Of a stretch of DNA of 40,138 bases, positions 4,070-32,907 are shown one piece after another (position 1 is the first letter of the stretch; every line of letters starts with the position of its first letter). The notes below the pieces were generated by a model. That model did no database searches and was not told the origin of the DNA. It saw only the letters and a list, made by a program, of their open reading frames with translations. The DNA is from Flavobacteriaceae bacterium (lineage in GTDB: Bacteria; Bacteroidota; Bacteroidia; Flavobacteriales; Flavobacteriaceae). The translations under genes were made by a program, and so were the position numbers. Location: contig JANTFO010000009.1 of the NCBI GenBank assembly GCA_024763365.1, forward strand, positions 1 through 40,138, given 5' to 3'.

Positions 4070-6046
4070 TTAATTTAATGCTAATGCAGCTTCTACAACT
4101 TTAGCAGCTGTAATACCTAATTCTTCATATAAAGTAGCAATGGGTGCAGATGCTCCATATCTGTCCAACCCGATAATATTGCCATCTAAGCCAACGTATT
4201 TATACCATGGCAAGCTGGCCGCTGCTTCCACTGCTATGCGTTTTCTGATTTTTAAGGGTAAAACTTCCGATTTATAAGATTCGTCTTGTTGTTCAAATAA
4301 CTCCATAGAAGGCATAGACACTACCCTAACTTTTTTTCCTTTCTGATTCAATATTTCTTTTGCTTTCAAAGCGATATGCACTTCAGAGCCACTGGAGATT
4401 AATATGTATTCAAAACTTTCATCTTCAGTTAACACATATCCTCCTTTAGCCGCATGTGTGCAATAACCTACCTTTTTATCATCACGACTAATAACAGTAA
4501 GGTTCTGACGTGTTAAGATCAAGGCTGTTGGCCCTTCATTTCTATTTAAAGCAATTTGCCAGCCCACACTGGTTTCATTAGCATCCATCGGTCTAAAAGT
4601 AACCAAATTTGGGATTGCTCTTAAAGCAGCTAAATGTTCTATAGGTTGATGTGTGGGGCCATCCTCTCCTAAACCAATAGAGTCATGAGTTAATACATAA
4701 ATAACTGGCAATTCCATTAACGCAGCCATACGCATTGCAGAACGCATATAATCTGAAAACACGAAGAAAGTACCTCCATAGGGAATGATACCTCCATGGA
4801 GTGCCATTCCATTCATCATGCCTGCCATACCAAATTCCCTAATACCATAATGTATATAGTTCCCATCTCGATGATTCGAATCATAAGCCGTGTGATGAGA
4901 AGTCATGGTATTATTGGAAGGAGTTAAATCTGCCGAGCCTCCTATCAATACTTTTAATTGTGGGACTAAAACATCCAATACTTTTCCGGAAGCTTTACGG
5001 GTTGCCATAGATTGTCCAAATTCAAAATAGGGAAACTCAATTTTGGGTATTTCTTTCGATAACATTCGAGAAAATTCGGTAGCTAATTCAGGAAAATTCT
5101 CTTTATACGAATCAAATAATGAATTCCAGTTTTCCTCTAAAGATGATCCCGTTTTAATAACTTTATGCGTATGTTCTAAGACTTCTTCCGGCACATAAAA
5201 TGCTTCAGGTGGTAAACCGAGATGTTTTTTACTCAATAATACTTCCTCTTCACCTAAAGGTGATCCATGAACTGATGAAGTACCCTGTTTGTTTGGACTT
5301 CCATAACCTATCAGGGTTTCACAGATAATAATAGATGGTAAATCGCTTTCTTTGGCTTGGCTAATGGCTTTTCTTATTTCATCAGGCTTATGTCCGTCTA
5401 CTAATTGCACATCCCATTGGTAAGCTCTAAAACGTTCTTCTACATCAGTAGCACTTGACATTTCAGTGGAACCATCAATAGTGATCTGATTGGAATCATA
5501 TAGAGCTATCAATTTATTCAATTTTTGATACCCGGCAAAAGAACAGACTTCATGTGAAATACCTTCCTGTAAATCACCATCACCAAGCATTACATAAGTA
5601 TAATGATTAACAATTTTGTGGCCTTTCCGGTTAAATGTGGCCGCAAGATAAGATTCTGCCCAAGCCATCCCTATAGCATTTGCCAAGCCTTGTCCCAATG
5701 GCCCGGTAGTAGTCTCCACACCTGGTGTATCCTGATGCTCGGGGTGTCCCGGCGTTTTACTATGCCACTGCCTGAAATTCTTTAAATCATCCAAACTCAA
5801 ATCATAACCGTACAAATACAACAAACTGTACAACAACATACTCCCATGCCCGCCGGAAAGTACAAAACGGTCACGGTCAAACCATTTAGGGTTTTTTGGA
5901 TTAAACTTGATGAACTCATCAAAAAGAACTGAAGCTACATCGGCCATGCCCATAGGCAAACCGGGATGTCCTGAATTAGCTTTTTGAATAGCATCCATTG
6001 ACAATCCTCTTATTGTGTTCGCAATTTGTTTTATGTGATTATCCAT
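4070..6046 (-). CDS. tkt: Transketolase
   Basis: Transketolase moves two-carbon ketol units between sugar phosphates and uses thiamine diphosphate. The 658-residue length is normal for the full-length bacterial enzyme. Visible motifs include NSGHPGLPMGMAD near the N-terminus, GPLGQGLANAIGMA, the thiamine-binding stretch beginning GDGDLQEGISHEV, the central HDSIGLGEDGPTHQPIEHL and the C-terminal RYGASAP. The N-terminal HIKQIANTIRGLSMDAIQKA supports the start at 6046. A -7 promoter element lies upstream at 6088-6095, beside a MITE-like repeat. It is the first gene of the tkt-rpe unit. Confidence 0.98.
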   Translation of the reverse strand: MDNHIKQIANTIRGLSMDAIQKANSGHPGLPMGMADVASVLFDEFIKFNPKNPKWFDRDRFVLSGGHGSMLLYSLLYLYGYDLSLDDLKNFRQWHSKTPGHPEHQDTPGVETTTGPLGQGLANAIGMAWAESYLAATFNRKGHKIVNHYTYVMLGDGDLQEGISHEVCSFAGYQKLNKLIALYDSNQITIDGSTEMSSATDVEERFRAYQWDVQLVDGHKPDEIRKAISQAKESDLPSIIICETLIGYGSPNKQGTSSVHGSPLGEEEVLLSKKHLGLPPEAFYVPEEVLEHTHKVIKTGSSLEENWNSLFDSYKENFPELATEFSRMLSKEIPKIEFPYFEFGQSMATRKASGKVLDVLVPQLKVLIGGSADLTPSNNTMTSHHTAYDSNHRDGNYIHYGIREFGMAGMMNGMALHGGIIPYGGTFFVFSDYMRSAMRMAALMELPVIYVLTHDSIGLGEDGPTHQPIEHLAALRAIPNLVTFRPMDANETSVGWQIALNRNEGPTALILTRQNLTVISRDDKKVGYCTHAAKGGYVLTEDESFEYILISSGSEVHIALKAKEILNQKGKKVRVVSMPSMELFEQQDESYKSEVLPLKIRKRIAVEAAASLPWYKYVGLDGNIIGLDRYGASAPIATLYEELGITAAKVVEAALALN

Positions 6047-25796: not shown

Positions 25797-28700
25797 TTAA
25801 GCTTCATTTCTTACTTTAACCTGGTATACAACATTTGGCCTGGTCCCTATAAAATCTAACAGGTGATAGGCTCTTTTGTCTTCCACCAATGAGGCTACTT
25901 TGCTATCCTTATCATTTACATCTCCAAAGACCAAAGCATTGGTACTACAGGCATTTACACAGGCAGTACTAAACTCACCATCTTTAATGGTTCTACCTTC
26001 TTTTTTAGCTTCTAAAATAGTAGCTTGTGTCATTTGAATACAAAGCGAACATTTTTCCATGACACCACGAGACCTGACAACAACATCAGGGTTAAGTACC
26101 ATTTTACCATAATCATCATTCATGTGATAATCAAATTCATCATTTTCATTGTAACGGAACCAGTTAAATCTACGCACGCGGTAGGGGCAGTTGTTTGCAC
26201 AGTATCGCGTACCTACACAACGGTTGTATGCCATTTGATTTTGACCTTGTTTTCCATGTGAGGTAGCTGCCACCGGACAAACAGTTTCACAAGGCGCCTG
26301 ATTACAATGTTGACACATCACAGGTTGGAAAGCTACTTGTGGATTTTCTGCCACTCTTTCAACTCCATGGTACATTTCTACTCTTCCCAATCCCTCTTCC
26401 TTTGCTTCCTCAAAAGAAGAAACATCAGATGAATAATATCTATCTATTCTCAACCAGTGCATATCCCGGCTTTTACGCACTTCTCTTTTACCAACAACAG
26501 GAATATTATTCTCAGCATGACAAGCTACTACACAAGCAGCACAACCGGTACATGCCGTTAAATCTATGGACAAGTTAAATTTATGTCCGGTACTATCGTC
26601 ATAAGTTTCCCAAAGGTTGGCTTTTTCTGCCGGCACTCCTTTGTGGTCCATTGAAAATTCATGTTTATGATTCCAATGGTGACTATCTTCATGTTGATAT
26701 TCATGAAATGACACCTCTTTTAAAATGTCATGCCTTCCTGCTAATGTATGGTGTAATTGGATGCATGCAAATTCATGCATACCATTAGGTGCACTTAGAA
26801 TTACATCATTCTGTATATTGTTGAAATTTTTATAAAATGAATAAGCGTTCACACCTACTTTCATTTCTTCTTTCAAACCACTTTTACGTCCATAACCTAA
26901 AGCCAAACCTAAGGAGCCTATTGCTTGCCCCGGTTGAATATATACTGGCACTTTTTCTAAGGTTACCCCATTAACAGTTATATCAATAGTATCCCCGTCC
27001 AGAGCACCATTATCTGCAGTAATATTTTTAATATTTAAATTTTTAGCATCTGTTGGTGACATGGTTAAATAATTGTCCCAAGAAGCTCTGGTTATAGGAT
27101 CTGGCAGTTCTTGTAACCAAGGATTATTAGCCATTTGTCCATCTCCCATTGCATTAGCAGTATATAAAGTAAGTTCGAAATCTTTTGGTTCAAACTTCAA
27201 TAATTCCTCAGCTACTATATTATAATCCACTTCTTGCACTTCAGGCGTGCTGCTTTCATCTTCTATTTCTAATATGGCAAATCCGTCGTGTAAACTTTGG
27301 TTCCAATCACCTTCAAAATTGTCTTTTAAGAATGTTGTATAATCCGATTCATTACCGGTCCATTTTAACAAGGTATCTTGAAATTGACGTGTGTTAAACA
27401 AGGCTTGGATAGTAGGTTGTATTAAGCTATAGCGTCCTCTTTTAGGCATTACATCACCCCATGACTCTAGGTAATGTGGTACAGCTAAGACATATTTCAT
27501 GGCTTTAGCCGTTTCATCCTCATGCATGGCAAAAGCAATACTTAAATCAACTTTTTCTAAAGCCTGAACAAAATTTTCACCTTTGGGTAGTGTATAGGCC
27601 GGATTTGTATTATAGGTTATTAAAGCGCCTACATTTCCATCTGTCATGTCCGCTAATAATTGCTCTACAGCTGCATCATTGCCATGACGTATATTTTTAG
27701 TGACTTTAGTATTAATAACAATTGAACCTAATGCTTTATTAATGGCAAGAGCTATGAGTTGTGCATTTTCATCCTGAATGCCTGTCACAAATACTCCTTT
27801 GTTGCCTGCTTTTTTTAACTTATCGGCAACTTCCTTGATCCTTTCTTCGGAAACTAGTTTGTCTGTTGCAAAATCTTGCCCTGTTATTTCATTGTAAATA
27901 GAAAGTAAGGCCGTAATTTGAGCTGATGGCTTTAATGGAATTCTTATATCGGCATTAGCTCCTGTAAGCGACATATTTGCTTCAAGCTGAATATGTTGAG
28001 ACATTTTGCCATTTTCCGGTTTTCTACCTTCCATATATCCCTTACTAAAACCTCCTCCTTGCCAATCTCCTAAGAAATCTGCACCAACAGATACAATGAC
28101 ATCTGCTTTAGAAAAATCGTAATCCGGAAGTGCTTTTGTCCCGTATAATTTTTCAAAAGCTGAAGTAGCGGCAGACTCAGAAACAGCATCGTACACTATA
28201 TGTTTTACAGGTCCATATTTTTCTGTAAAGTTTTCAACTATTTTCTTCGTAGAAGGGCTAGCACAGGTACCTGTCAATAGTACAACTTGCTTACCTGATT
28301 TAAATACTTCTCTGAGTTTATCGGGTACTTGACTGTCGATTTGCTCCCAAGTAGCCTCTTCTCCGTTAATTTTTGGATTTTGTAGTCTGAAGGTATCATA
28401 AAGAGATAAAACAGAGGCTTGTACTCTGGCATTAGTATGTCCTTCAGCTTCATTATTTGGCTCAATTTTGATTGGCCTGCCTTCTCTTGTTTTCACCAAT
28501 ACATTGGCAAAATCATAACCATCAAAATATGTGGAAGCATAATAGTTTGCCAAGCCTGGGGTAATCTCTTCCGGTTTTATCACATAAGGAATTGCTTTTC
28601 TAACAGGCCCTTCGCAAGATGCAACAGTTGCTGCCGCAGTTGTAAAGCCTAGATACTTTAAAAAATCTCTACGACTGGGTGCAGTGCTTTCCAAACGTTC

Positions 28701-28826
28701 TTTATCACCCAAAAACTCGTCTGTAGGAATTTCTTCAATAAACTCTTTTTGATTCAGGTTATCCACCAAAGAAGTATCTTTTTTCAACTCTTCGGTGCTT
28801 ACCCAATATTTTTTGTTTGGCGCCAT
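25797..28826 (-). CDS. actB: Alternative Complex III iron-sulfur/molybdopterin-like subunit ActB
   Basis: ActB is the large peripheral subunit of ACIII, a fusion of a molybdopterin-oxidoreductase-like domain that has lost its cofactor and an NrfC-like ferredoxin domain. The 1009-residue protein has a Tat motif SRRDFLKYLGF (51-61), then a lipobox ending at Cys71 (TVASC), so export and lipid anchoring are expected. After the large MoPterin-like region (about 90-720), four Cys-rich blocks begin near residue 755: CTGCAACVVACHAENN, CQHCNQAPCETVCPV, CVGTRYCANNCPYRVRRFNW, and CSLCIQMT with CVNACSTNA, fitting three [4Fe-4S] and one [3Fe-4S] clusters. It follows actA by 38 bases. Confidence 0.95.
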   Translation of the reverse strand: MAPNKKYWVSTEELKKDTSLVDNLNQKEFIEEIPTDEFLGDKERLESTAPSRRDFLKYLGFTTAAATVASCEGPVRKAIPYVIKPEEITPGLANYYASTYFDGYDFANVLVKTREGRPIKIEPNNEAEGHTNARVQASVLSLYDTFRLQNPKINGEEATWEQIDSQVPDKLREVFKSGKQVVLLTGTCASPSTKKIVENFTEKYGPVKHIVYDAVSESAATSAFEKLYGTKALPDYDFSKADVIVSVGADFLGDWQGGGFSKGYMEGRKPENGKMSQHIQLEANMSLTGANADIRIPLKPSAQITALLSIYNEITGQDFATDKLVSEERIKEVADKLKKAGNKGVFVTGIQDENAQLIALAINKALGSIVINTKVTKNIRHGNDAAVEQLLADMTDGNVGALITYNTNPAYTLPKGENFVQALEKVDLSIAFAMHEDETAKAMKYVLAVPHYLESWGDVMPKRGRYSLIQPTIQALFNTRQFQDTLLKWTGNESDYTTFLKDNFEGDWNQSLHDGFAILEIEDESSTPEVQEVDYNIVAEELLKFEPKDFELTLYTANAMGDGQMANNPWLQELPDPITRASWDNYLTMSPTDAKNLNIKNITADNGALDGDTIDITVNGVTLEKVPVYIQPGQAIGSLGLALGYGRKSGLKEEMKVGVNAYSFYKNFNNIQNDVILSAPNGMHEFACIQLHHTLAGRHDILKEVSFHEYQHEDSHHWNHKHEFSMDHKGVPAEKANLWETYDDSTGHKFNLSIDLTACTGCAACVVACHAENNIPVVGKREVRKSRDMHWLRIDRYYSSDVSSFEEAKEEGLGRVEMYHGVERVAENPQVAFQPVMCQHCNQAPCETVCPVAATSHGKQGQNQMAYNRCVGTRYCANNCPYRVRRFNWFRYNENDEFDYHMNDDYGKMVLNPDVVVRSRGVMEKCSLCIQMTQATILEAKKEGRTIKDGEFSTACVNACSTNALVFGDVNDKDSKVASLVEDKRAYHLLDFIGTRPNVVYQVKVRNEA

Positions 28827-28864
28827 ATTATTATCTTTCTATTCAGTATTCTTAAAATTATTAA

Positions 28865-30064
28865 TTAGTAGTGACATTTACCACATTCTAAACCACCCAT
28901 ATCTGCCACCGTTGCTCCTTTATGAGCTTTTTGTAGAGCTTCGTATGTTCCTCTATAATAGCCATTATCATCCATATTTACTTCCGTGTCTCTATGACAG
29001 GAAATACACCAATCCATGGTTAATGGTGAAAATTGTTCAACACGGTGCATTTCTTCAACAGGGCCGTGGCAAGTTTGACATTCTAAACCTGCTACATTCA
29101 CATGCTGAGAATGGTTGTAAAAAACAAAATCAGGCAAACTGTGAACCCTTGTCCATTCGATGGGTTTGCCTTCTGAAGTATAGGCAAATTTAGATACATC
29201 CCAACCGGCTGATTCATATACTTTAGCAATCTCAGCATCAAAAAACTCTTTATCGTAATCTCCATAAACTTCACCTTTATACTCTTTGATGAATTTGTGG
29301 CAATTCATACAAACATTCGTGGAGGGAATACCGGAAGTTTTACTATGTTTAGCTGATGAGTGGCAGTATTCACAATCAATGCCATTATCTCCAGCATGTA
29401 CTTTATGTGAAAATTCTATAGGTTGAATGGGCTTATAACCTGTGTCAACCCCTATTTGCAATAAGTAAGCGAATAAAAAATAAGCTACAGTAAATACACC
29501 TATAATCGCAAAAAATATAGCAGCAAAATTTTGTTTTTTCTTAGCAAGGAAATAAACTACAGCTATGAAAATTAAAACAACCAATGGCTGCCACCACCAG
29601 TTACTGTTTTGGGGTTTTAAATCCTGATATATTGGATTACCAGCTCCGGGAACTACCAGAGGTGTTGCCACAGCTTCCACCGCTATTCCTTCATCACCCA
29701 CACTAGTATAGGCAATGATGTTTTGAACATCTTCTTTGGTCAATTGTGGAAAAGGAGTCATTGGAGTTTTGTTGTACTCTTCAAATAGTTTTTTAGCTTC
29801 CGGATTTTTCTGCACCCATTCTGTAGGATTATTGACCATGCTTAAAATCCATTCTTCTGATCGACGTTCTGCTACATTCTTTAACGGTGGTCCGATCAAC
29901 TTGGCATCTAATTGATGACATGCTGTACAATTTGTCATGAACAATTCTTTTCCTTTGGCAGGGTCTGCCTCCTGAGCTTGTAGGGAAAAAGTTAGGAAAA
30001 AGAGGGTTGTGAAGACAAAAGCTAATAAATTTGATACTAAATTGCGTTTTTGCACAATATTCAT
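28865..30064 (-). CDS. actA: Alternative Complex III multihaem cytochrome ActA with an extra N-terminal haem domain
   Basis: ActA is the multihaem cytochrome c subunit of ACIII. The 399-residue protein begins with a signal peptide (to about residue 31, LQAQ) and a monohaem cytochrome c-type domain with CTACH (46-50) and a Met-containing tail (about 98-110). Two membrane helices follow (about 160-174 and 180-204), and then five more haem sites: CEYCH (231), CMNCH (252), CQTCH (329), CISCH (353) and CGKCH (394), the last one residue before the C-terminus. Six CXXCH motifs in all; the basic ActA described from Rhodothermus is pentahaem, so the first domain is an added fusion. It is the first gene of the operon. 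The upstream 216-base gap shows no clear promoter on this strand. Confidence 0.95.
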   Translation of the reverse strand: MNIVQKRNLVSNLLAFVFTTLFFLTFSLQAQEADPAKGKELFMTNCTACHQLDAKLIGPPLKNVAERRSEEWILSMVNNPTEWVQKNPEAKKLFEEYNKTPMTPFPQLTKEDVQNIIAYTSVGDEGIAVEAVATPLVVPGAGNPIYQDLKPQNSNWWWQPLVVLIFIAVVYFLAKKKQNFAAIFFAIIGVFTVAYFLFAYLLQIGVDTGYKPIQPIEFSHKVHAGDNGIDCEYCHSSAKHSKTSGIPSTNVCMNCHKFIKEYKGEVYGDYDKEFFDAEIAKVYESAGWDVSKFAYTSEGKPIEWTRVHSLPDFVFYNHSQHVNVAGLECQTCHGPVEEMHRVEQFSPLTMDWCISCHRDTEVNMDDNGYYRGTYEALQKAHKGATVADMGGLECGKCHY

Positions 30065-30684: not shown

Positions 30685-30894
30685 TTATTCTTTTCTCTTA
30701 CAAGTTTTTATGCCAAATATTGAATAAAGTGGACAAGAGCCCATGAGTGTTGTCAACAACATTATCGCAGCAACTATCCATAATACTATGGGCACCCAAG
30801 AGGCCTCAAAACCTCCTTTCCAAGCAAAATATGCGGCAACTATGGCAATGATAAATCTAATCACTTTGTCTGCAATTCCTACATTTTTTTTCAT
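30685..30894 (-). CDS. DUF2892 small membrane protein
   Basis: The 69-residue protein matches the DUF2892 family (YgaP-type inner-membrane domain): MKKNVGIADKVIRFIIAI, two membrane helices (about 10-30 and 34-52), and the family C-terminus GSCPLYSIFGIKTC with two cysteines (Cys54 and Cys65). In other bacteria this domain is often fused to or encoded near rhodanese and other sulfur-handling proteins, which agrees with its place as the last gene of the SQR-like operon. It follows the HMA gene by 19 bases. Its biochemical role is unknown. Confidence 0.88.
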   Translation of the reverse strand: MKKNVGIADKVIRFIIAIVAAYFAWKGGFEASWVPIVLWIVAAIMLLTTLMGSCPLYSIFGIKTCKRKE

Positions 30895-30913: not shown

Positions 30914-31192
30914 TTAATTTTCTTTATTTACATCAATTCTACCTACAGCACAACTTATATAAGACTTTATTTTTTGAAATTGTGAGTTTTCAGCAATATT
31001 GACAGGGTAACCTAATTTACTTAACTTTCTTTTGACATCTTCAGTAACCTGTTCGTTATCTGAATCAAAATGCACCGTTGAACTTTCCACCTCAACAGAA
31101 ACATCTTGAACACCTTTAATATGTTTTAAAGCTTTAGTAATAGTATTGGCACACCCGTGACATTTTATATTTTGGACATTTAGTGTTTGCAT
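30914..31192 (-). CDS. Heavy-metal-associated (HMA) domain protein
   Basis: The 92-residue protein is a ferredoxin-like HMA domain with the metal site KCHGCANTI (Cys11 and Cys14), then KALKHIKGVQDVSVEVESSTVHFDSD and VKRKLSKLGYPV as expected, plus a short C-terminal extension with one more Cys. HMA domains bind Cu(I) or similar soft metals; a thiol or persulfide role is possible in a sulfur operon but is inference. The start is the ATG at 31192; a longer reading to 31288 would overlap the upstream gene and has no HMA character. It begins five bases after the stop of the 74-aa gene. Confidence 0.88.
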   Translation of the reverse strand: MQTLNVQNIKCHGCANTITKALKHIKGVQDVSVEVESSTVHFDSDNEQVTEDVKRKLSKLGYPVNIAENSQFQKIKSYISCAVGRIDVNKEN

Positions 31193-31197
31193 AATTT

Positions 31198-31422
31198 TTA
31201 AATTTATGTAACAAATGTAACACAAATGAAGGGAGTTGCCAAAAAAATCTATGAGTGCCCTTTGATCACAATACGCATTACTTTCCAATTGAGTTTAAAG
31301 AATTGGAATATTTGATAAATCATACACCAGCGAGAAAAGCGTACAAAAGCACCGGGCTCTGTAGCAAATGACATATTGCTATAAGGTATATTTTTAGGTT
31401 TACTTTTTAACTTTTGCGTCAT
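31198..31422 (-). CDS. Small 74-aa protein in the SQR operon, unknown function
   Basis: This reading frame runs from ATG at 31422 to TAA at 31198 and fits exactly between the SQR-like gene (33 bases upstream) and the HMA gene (five bases downstream), leaving the operon continuously coding. The product starts MTQKLKSKPKNIPYSNMSF, continues ATEPGAFVRFSRWCMIYQIF and then has an aromatic, basic, amphipathic region (KLNWKVMRIVIKG) with one Cys in RWC. There is no signal peptide and no clear transmembrane helix; a peripheral membrane or partner-protein role is conceivable. I do not recognise a family. Codon use resembles its neighbours, and no other frame in the interval makes a better gene. Confidence 0.7.
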
Positions 31423-31455
31423 CTTTATTGAGTTTAAGTTTTATTTATAAATTTA

Positions 31456-32907
31456 TTATTCAGGAATTAACCACCAAAAAAGTTTGGCTTTGGCCTTGTA
31501 AATGAACATATAATGCATGAAAAGTTTCATCCAATGACCAGCTGTTCCAACCACACCTACCGTGTCTTTAATATTCCTACCCCACTTTGGGTATTTTTCC
31601 CAATCTTGTACAATAGGTCTTACAGTCATCACTGCAGCTTTACCTTTAAATAACCCATAACCAGCAGATACAATACATGCAGCCCCCATAGTAGCCATGG
31701 AAGCTTCGTGGGGATGGTCTTTTTTACCTGTTTTTATTTGATGGATGATATTCTGAGCTACTACTTTACCAATAACTCCAGAGGGCATTCCGGTTCTGGG
31801 TGGTGTTGGGAATATTTTAGTTCCATTAGGACTTTGCATCGGCTTAGACATAGTATGTGGTGGAGCAAATGCTATCCCTGAAGCATACATATTACTATAA
31901 ATAGGGTTTTGGTAAATCAATGGCCAATCAGAGGCTTTCCAGTCTTCATAGGGCTTTGGTGTATAATCGGCATCAACTTTCATCATGGTATTAGCTGCAA
32001 AAATGGTATCAGAAATATCTGATCCGTCTTTTGCAAAGGCTTTCATGCCGGAACCGGCAAATCCGGGGATTAACATTGAAAAGTCAAAATCTTTAACATG
32101 TTTTTCTCCGTCTAAAGTTTCATAATATACTTTACCCTTTTCTAATTTTTGAACACCGGCTCTTTTTATCCATCTGATACCATATTCTTTTAATATAGAT
32201 TCTGTAAATATCTTGGTTGGGGTGATATATCCATTTCTTTTTACATAAGCACCTCCCATCCCAAAATCTCCTAATTCATATTCATTAGAAATCCACCATA
32301 TATCTGCCATATGCGATAGTTTACGTTTGTGTACTTCAAATGCAATGTTTAGCACATATTCAAATGCCGCTCCTTGACAAGTGGCTAAAGGATGACCTGT
32401 ACCAATTAAAATAGTTTGCTTTTGGCCGGCTTCCATTTTCTGTAAGGTATCTTCTAAATTCTTCCATGCATGGGCTGCATGCTCATAGGTGCAAACAGAG
32501 TTAGAATACTCACCCAAGCCTGCTGTAGCTTCAAAATTTAATTTTGGCCCTGTAGCATTGATCAAATAATCATAAGTTACTTTTTCTGATTCACCTTCTT
32601 TCTCTTCGGATACGTATTTGATATTTACGTATGCTTGTTCAATATCTTTATCCCCTTCGGGATGTATAGAAACAGCTAAAGCTTGCTTGTAGTCAATACC
32701 TGCTTTTTTATAAACAGGTGCTAATTTAAATTTAACCTGTTCGGGTTTCATTAATCCAACCCCCACCCATATATTTGATGGTACCCATTGGTAATTACTA
32801 TTGGGAGAAATCATGACGATTTCATGTTTTCTTCTCAAAGATCTACTTAAATAAAGTGCTGCTGTATGACCGGAAATACCGGCTCCTAAGACCAAGACTT
32901 TTGCCAT
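31456..32907 (-). CDS. Sulfide:quinone oxidoreductase-like FAD-dependent oxidoreductase
   Basis: The 483-residue flavoprotein has the FAD dinucleotide motif VLGAGISGHTAALYL (6-20) and YDYLINATGP (112-121). Three cysteines occupy places like those of sulfide:quinone oxidoreductases: Cys139 (NSVCTYEHA), Cys177 in TCQGAAFEY, which parallels the CxGPxYE block with the first redox Cys, and Cys411 in GAACIVSAGYG, which parallels the second. The C-terminus (KLFMHYMFIYKAKAKLFWWL) is an amphipathic stretch of the sort that anchors SQR to the membrane. SQR oxidises sulfide to sulfane sulfur and reduces quinone. The exact subtype and substrate are inferred. It heads an operon with the 74-aa, HMA and DUF2892 genes, and a terminator-like hairpin lies in its leader. 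Confidence 0.82.
   Translation of the reverse strand: MAKVLVLGAGISGHTAALYLSRSLRRKHEIVMISPNSNYQWVPSNIWVGVGLMKPEQVKFKLAPVYKKAGIDYKQALAVSIHPEGDKDIEQAYVNIKYVSEEKEGESEKVTYDYLINATGPKLNFEATAGLGEYSNSVCTYEHAAHAWKNLEDTLQKMEAGQKQTILIGTGHPLATCQGAAFEYVLNIAFEVHKRKLSHMADIWWISNEYELGDFGMGGAYVKRNGYITPTKIFTESILKEYGIRWIKRAGVQKLEKGKVYYETLDGEKHVKDFDFSMLIPGFAGSGMKAFAKDGSDISDTIFAANTMMKVDADYTPKPYEDWKASDWPLIYQNPIYSNMYASGIAFAPPHTMSKPMQSPNGTKIFPTPPRTGMPSGVIGKVVAQNIIHQIKTGKKDHPHEASMATMGAACIVSAGYGLFKGKAAVMTVRPIVQDWEKYPKWGRNIKDTVGVVGTAGHWMKLFMHYMFIYKAKAKLFWWLIPE

Follow-up and report, generated by a model that had tools for sequence, protein, structure and literature searches.

Does the short open reading frame (ORF) between a flavoprotein gene and an HMA-domain gene in this flavobacterial operon encode a protein, and if so, to which of its neighbors does that protein belong? 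A sequence-only reading of the window (i.e., the whole 40,138-nucleotide stretch of DNA that was analyzed) had placed a 74-codon frame on the minus strand at 31198–31422, ending five bases from the HMA gene. This frame is not open, since codon 58 reads TAG and codon 73 TAA; the gene is confined to positions 31249–31422 on the minus strand and consists of 57 codons and the TAG stop. The end coordinate given previously was wrong, and 56 nt (31193–31248, minus strand) separate the true stop from the start codon of the HMA gene (ATG at 31192). The encoded peptide of 57 residues (MTQKLK...PYSNMSFATEPG...FSRWCMIYQIFQFFKLNWKVMRIVIKGHS) starts at the ATG at 31422, ends in ...IKGHS, and contains the motif EPGAFVRFSRWC that had been picked out before. 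The 33-nt distance from the stop of the flavoprotein gene to the ATG of the small gene (31423–31455, minus strand) is as first described, and this spacer is in frame in the window. The impression that the peptide has no clear membrane helix also fits, with the most hydrophobic 19-residue stretch averaging 0.32 on the Eisenberg scale; the C-terminal half of the protein is modeled as a helix by AlphaFold. The window protein matches no Pfam or NCBIfam family at E ≤ 1 and, by sequence, nothing in the PDB at E ≤ 10. Searches of Pfam and NCBIfam with 47 homologues gave only weak single-member matches (best E values 0.075 and 0.03), and four homologues from other clades have no Pfam match at E ≤ 0.01. 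The sole PDB profile match, a beta-carbonic anhydrase, is a chance one (E = 3.7).

The large upstream neighbor (31456–32907, minus strand) encodes a flavoprotein of 483 residues that resembles sulfide:quinone reductase (SQR) and is probably of type IV (SqrD). Pyr_redox_2 scores above the Pfam cut-off in this protein, and its highest-ranking matches in the PDB are SQRs, those of Aquifex aeolicus (E = 2.3e-34) and Acidithiobacillus ferrooxidans. Cys139, Cys177 and Cys411 of the window protein align with cysteines of the A. aeolicus SQR, which we take to be the three redox cysteines of that type I enzyme, and are invariant in 43 of 43 aligned relatives. A structural model of the window protein has the SQR fold, with Z values of 39.3 to 3t2y and 38.8 to 3hyv (VIA-align). 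Judged by its sequence, the large gene is an SQR relative with all three SQR cysteines.

Among 60 relatives, with the window's own genome included, 12 match the small peptide at E ≤ 0.01, and these include all six other genomes of the genus; the matches in G007, G046 and G047 are weak (E = 0.001–0.01; two with an internal stop) and are not counted as homologues. A search of named assemblies with the SQR protein gave 121 loci, the best 80 of which were analyzed (record titles: Lutibacter, other Flavobacteriia, Bacteroidales and a few others); loci L002–L007, which repeat L014–L018 and L020, were excluded both from the 80 and from the dN/dS set. An intact homologue of the small ORF, 53–61 residues long, follows the SQR gene on the same strand in 79 of these best 80 loci, and the profile match to the small protein begins 11–266 nt past the SQR stop in the 79. 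In the 80th locus (L091), the first 34 residues of a homologue are found ∼0.8 kb downstream of the SQR gene, where the contig ends. The region between the two genes in L091 includes a repetitive stretch (4459–5254) whose translations are rich in repeated W-K-V-E and G-R-M-E.

Arg31, Gln37, Phe41, Asn45, Gly55 and His56 are invariant in a 47-row alignment of the small protein, and the C terminus reads GHS in 76 of the 79 homologues, GHN in two and GHD in one. Mean pairwise differences at codon positions 1, 2 and 3 of the small gene are 0.32, 0.30 and 0.56, and dN/dS is below 1 (median 0.28) in 168 of the 169 pairs, out of 3321, that have a dS of 0.1–1. Purifying selection on the small gene is clear from these comparisons; a chance ORF is ruled out by the homologous frame in 79 of 80 loci together with the codon and dN/dS pattern, and by this sequence evidence the small ORF is a real, conserved protein-coding gene. 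Cysteine is absent from 25 of the 79 homologues, which makes a role as a persulfide carrier acting through a cysteine unlikely.

The pairing extends well beyond these assemblies. In a sample of 395 genomes from the phylum, in which up to 17 candidates per genome were scored with the small-protein profile and up to four with the SQR (so that extra copies may be missed), the profile matches 97 genomes and the SQR protein matches 107 genomes at E ≤ 1e-20. The SQR matches split into two sets: 106 hits scoring 207 bits or more, in 97 genomes, and 11 ordinary SQR genes scoring no more than 99 bits, in 10 genomes that have no other kind; the count of 106 leaves out one 60-residue fragment (G253:C116) as well as the 11 ordinary genes. 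The small protein adjoins the SQR on the same strand in 103 of the 106 hits. As to the exceptions, in G214 the contig stops 330 bases past the SQR gene and a different contig has the small gene at its end, in G441 a diverged 38-residue partner lies 12 nt downstream of the SQR hit, and in G316 the SQR hit is an N-terminal fragment at a contig edge. By the cut-offs used, 96 of the 97 genomes with this kind of SQR have the small gene, and the 97th is G441 with its diverged ORF. None of the 11 ordinary SQR genes (10 genomes) is followed by a similar small ORF. Conversely, the small gene was hit six times with no SQR hit beside it, five times at a contig end and once in G401. The SQR-like gene in G401 (L206) is in fragments and the small ORF there is without its C-terminal part, reflecting either joint decay or an assembly error. 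The small gene is located directly downstream of this kind of SQR wherever the contig permits a view, a pattern that spans Bacteroidota, FMO-bearing (green sulfur) genomes and three plasmids from other phyla, the last two described below. Conserved adjacency to SQR-like genes and dN/dS below 1 had been set beforehand as the test of the sequence-only reading, and both hold far beyond the window; its proposal of a candidate partner or assembly factor of the SQR is supported as an association, on the strength of gene adjacency.

Partner length ranges from ∼36 to 61 residues, and in some clades there is little beyond the C-terminal helix. The core shared by 17 wider representatives is Q-x3-[FY]-x3-[NS]-x-K, with the Gln and the Lys present in all 17.

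Which genomes carry the pair bears on the class of the SQR. The FMO antenna protein (PF02327), which marks green sulfur bacteria, is found in 92 of the 395 genomes, in families f30, f32, f43 and f64. Of the 97 genomes with both SQR and partner, f32 accounts for 77, and an FMO match is present in 74, which are for that reason probably green sulfur bacteria; 18 further FMO genomes have no match of this SQR. In one FMO-positive genome (G163), the only SQR match at E ≤ 1e-20 is located at 112 kb, presumably close to the expected place of the 117th gene, Chlorobaculum tepidum CT0117. On this basis, which includes gene order, the present kind of SQR is likely type IV (SqrD). CT0117 is described as a well characterized type IV SQR in PMC4584964, and SqrD, the type IV enzyme, is given as the source of most SQR activity in C. 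tepidum in PMC3368242. Diverged second pairs, with an SQR-like protein of 37–42% identity and a partner of ∼38 residues, are seen in FMO-bearing genomes (L124–L133 and L142), beside the main pair in four FMO-bearing genomes and in place of it in eight.

Three full-length SQR relatives from outside the phylum (52–58% identity; tblastn against plasmids, E ≤ 1e-30) are carried by Sulfurovum mangrovi, Candidatus Thiodictyon syntrophicum and Marivivens sp. In three of three, the next gene encodes a "hypothetical protein" of 52–53 residues that scores 47–51 bits with the small-protein profile, and a Shine-Dalgarno-like GGAG precedes the ATG of the small gene in the Sulfurovum and Thiodictyon plasmids. 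Other genes of Candidatus Thiodictyon syntrophicum are named SqrD and SqrF in PMC5944118, a point against the type IV assignment; the plasmid copy is therefore an additional type IV gene unless it belongs to some other type.

The genes that flank the pair are much less constant. An HMA gene is found within 700 nt downstream in 27 of the best 80 of 121 loci (74 of which have enough room), and all 27 have flavobacterial record titles. The small gene is present in 80 of 80 (one of them displaced and cut), and we reject the idea that it is a partner of the HMA gene. The flanking genes vary from locus to locus while the pair of SQR and small gene stays together, which indicates that the small gene belongs to the SQR.

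A possible function is suggested by the C-terminal helices of SQRs. According to PMC9666304, most SQRs have two C-terminal amphipathic helices and those of type VI only one, and Caldivirga SqrC, in which the C-terminal helices are truncated, is cytoplasmic and inactive. Type VI TrSqrF without its C-terminal helix is still membrane bound and partly active (PMC9666304), so such helices are not always essential. We modeled the window SQR and its partner as one chain, linked by the 33 nt that lie between the two genes, with stops read as residues (AlphaFold model 1; mean pLDDT 87.6, pTM 0.87); this joined chain is artificial and forces the SQR and the partner near each other. In model 1, a single C-terminal SQR helix (residues 455–472) is followed by partner helices at 520–527 and 529–551. 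The mean pLDDT of the partner is 84 for residues 521–530, 89 for 531–540 and 75 for 541–550, with values under 50 for the spacer and for the first 18 residues of the partner. Model 2, made from a genome with a 38-residue partner (mean pLDDT 82.3, pTM 0.83), has the same order of helices (SQR 449–466; partner 496–503 and 505–524), with the partner at low confidence (block mean pLDDT 59, 71, 66 and 38).

Structural alignment of model 1 to A. aeolicus 3hyv by VIA-align (Z = 38.8, rmsd 1.9) matches residues 2–416 of the A. aeolicus SQR at 413 positions, and the 3hyv aligned range, of which the alignment gives the end points only, reaches the last partner residue in model 1 and enters the partner in model 2 too. 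All four human SQR entries run into the partner in both models, to residues 545–549 in model 1. As for the 11 A. ferrooxidans and A. aeolicus rows, nine end at or before residue 490 in model 1, outside the partner, and eight run into the partner in model 2. In model 1 the aligned ranges of CoA-disulfide reductases and of an NADH oxidase extend into the partner as well (rmsd 3.3–4.1); because the CoA-disulfide reductases do so, the VIA-align ranges are not decisive. The strongest helical moment falls in the C-terminal helix in the window protein and in one short form, and further toward the N terminus in two others. Mean-field direct coupling analysis (DCA) of 133 pairs (effective number 30 at 80% identity, which is too few) gave inter-protein pairs scattered over the SQR. 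From the models, the partner helix may take the place of the second helix that classical SQRs have at the C terminus.

The small gene is probably an overlooked helper of this kind of SQR, perhaps one that tethers the enzyme to the membrane close to its quinone. In its most specific form, to which we give an even chance, the small ORF would encode a dedicated small subunit of the SQR (most likely type IV) that supplies a second C-terminal helix in trans. The C-terminal helix of the partner, with its conserved Gln-to-Lys core, would dock on the one such helix that the SQR has and so provide the second membrane-lying helix that is in-chain in most SQRs; the two proteins together would grip the membrane surface and give the quinone entrance its shape, and electrons would flow from sulfide to FAD and on to the quinone pool. 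The N-terminal half of the partner (PYS...TEP) is missing from the short forms, and the subunit model leaves that half unexplained. We hold it a reasonable possibility, somewhat short of an even chance, that the type IV SQR is a two-protein enzyme, with its second membrane or quinone helix coming from a separate, unnamed peptide of ∼50 residues.

The association data would be the same if the small protein served assembly or stability, binding the SQR while this folds, takes up FAD or is brought to the membrane, and remaining outside the working enzyme. The variable length of the partner, with the N-terminal half absent in some clades, is what a loosely constrained helper might look like, and the low model confidence for the short form points in the same direction. 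Such a factor nevertheless seems rather unlikely to us, given that Arg31, Gln37 and Asn45 are invariant in 47 rows and the Gln and Lys in 17 of 17 wider representatives, that the helix is modeled with good confidence in the joined chain of model 1, and that no partner hit away from a contig end is found without an intact or broken SQR-like neighbor. It is less probable still, and to our minds distinctly doubtful, that the small protein is a docking adapter coupling the SQR to a further partner, whether a sulfur acceptor or a second quinone enzyme. In its favor, the enzyme has to release its sulfur product, a cytochrome/MopB cluster lies close to the gene in the window, and a thioredoxin or another flavoprotein is encoded close by at some loci; against it, the neighbors differ among loci while the pair persists. 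That the ORF is untranslated, its conservation being due to an RNA element or to chance, is hardly credible in the face of the codon-position pattern, the dN/dS values, the conservation of amino acids across phyla, and the GGAG before the ATG in Sulfurovum and Thiodictyon.

How would a small subunit compare with known SQRs? With type IV SQR (SqrD; C. tepidum CT0117, A. vinosum Alvin_2145) the window protein shares the SQR fold, at Z values of 38–39 to the A. ferrooxidans and A. aeolicus enzymes, and the three SQR cysteines; a second subunit goes unmentioned in the available portions of the literature on the type IV enzyme, whereas here a small gene accompanies the SQR gene. The type I helix pair offers another parallel, since the aligned ranges of both A. 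aeolicus 3hyv and A. ferrooxidans 3t2z enter the partner helix in both models, but in type I both helices are in one chain, whereas here one would sit on a separate protein of ∼36–61 residues. Type VI SQR (SqrF, Thiocapsa roseopersicina) likewise has one C-terminal helix in the main chain and differs in that no small partner is mentioned for it, to the extent that the text of PMC9666304 is available. The literature, in the parts accessible, describes SQRs as monotopic flavoproteins and makes no mention of a second subunit; the open-access literature yielded no small SQR partner in a search that covered few subscription papers, which is weak evidence of absence. If type IV SQR does need a small subunit, clones that carry only sqrD may be inactive or mislocalized, sqrD insertion mutants may be affected in the partner as well, and the pair could be used as a diagnostic mark in SQR surveys. 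Such a subunit would, in addition, give an example from nature of a membrane anchor provided in trans.

Downstream of the small gene, the window contains on the minus strand the HMA-domain (CopZ/MerP-like) gene (30914–31192, 92 residues) and a gene for a YgaP-like transmembrane-domain protein (30685–30894, 69 residues), and a multihaem cytochrome and fused MopB/Fe-S genes (25797–30064) adjoin the SQR operon, in a cluster that resembles alternative complex III. The HMA protein of the window and those at, for example, L016, L019, L022–L025, L030–L032 and L034–L036 share a C-terminal extension, in which a further conserved Cys is found within K-S-[FY]-[VI]-S-C-A-[TVS]-G-[RK], beyond the metal-binding C-x2-C.
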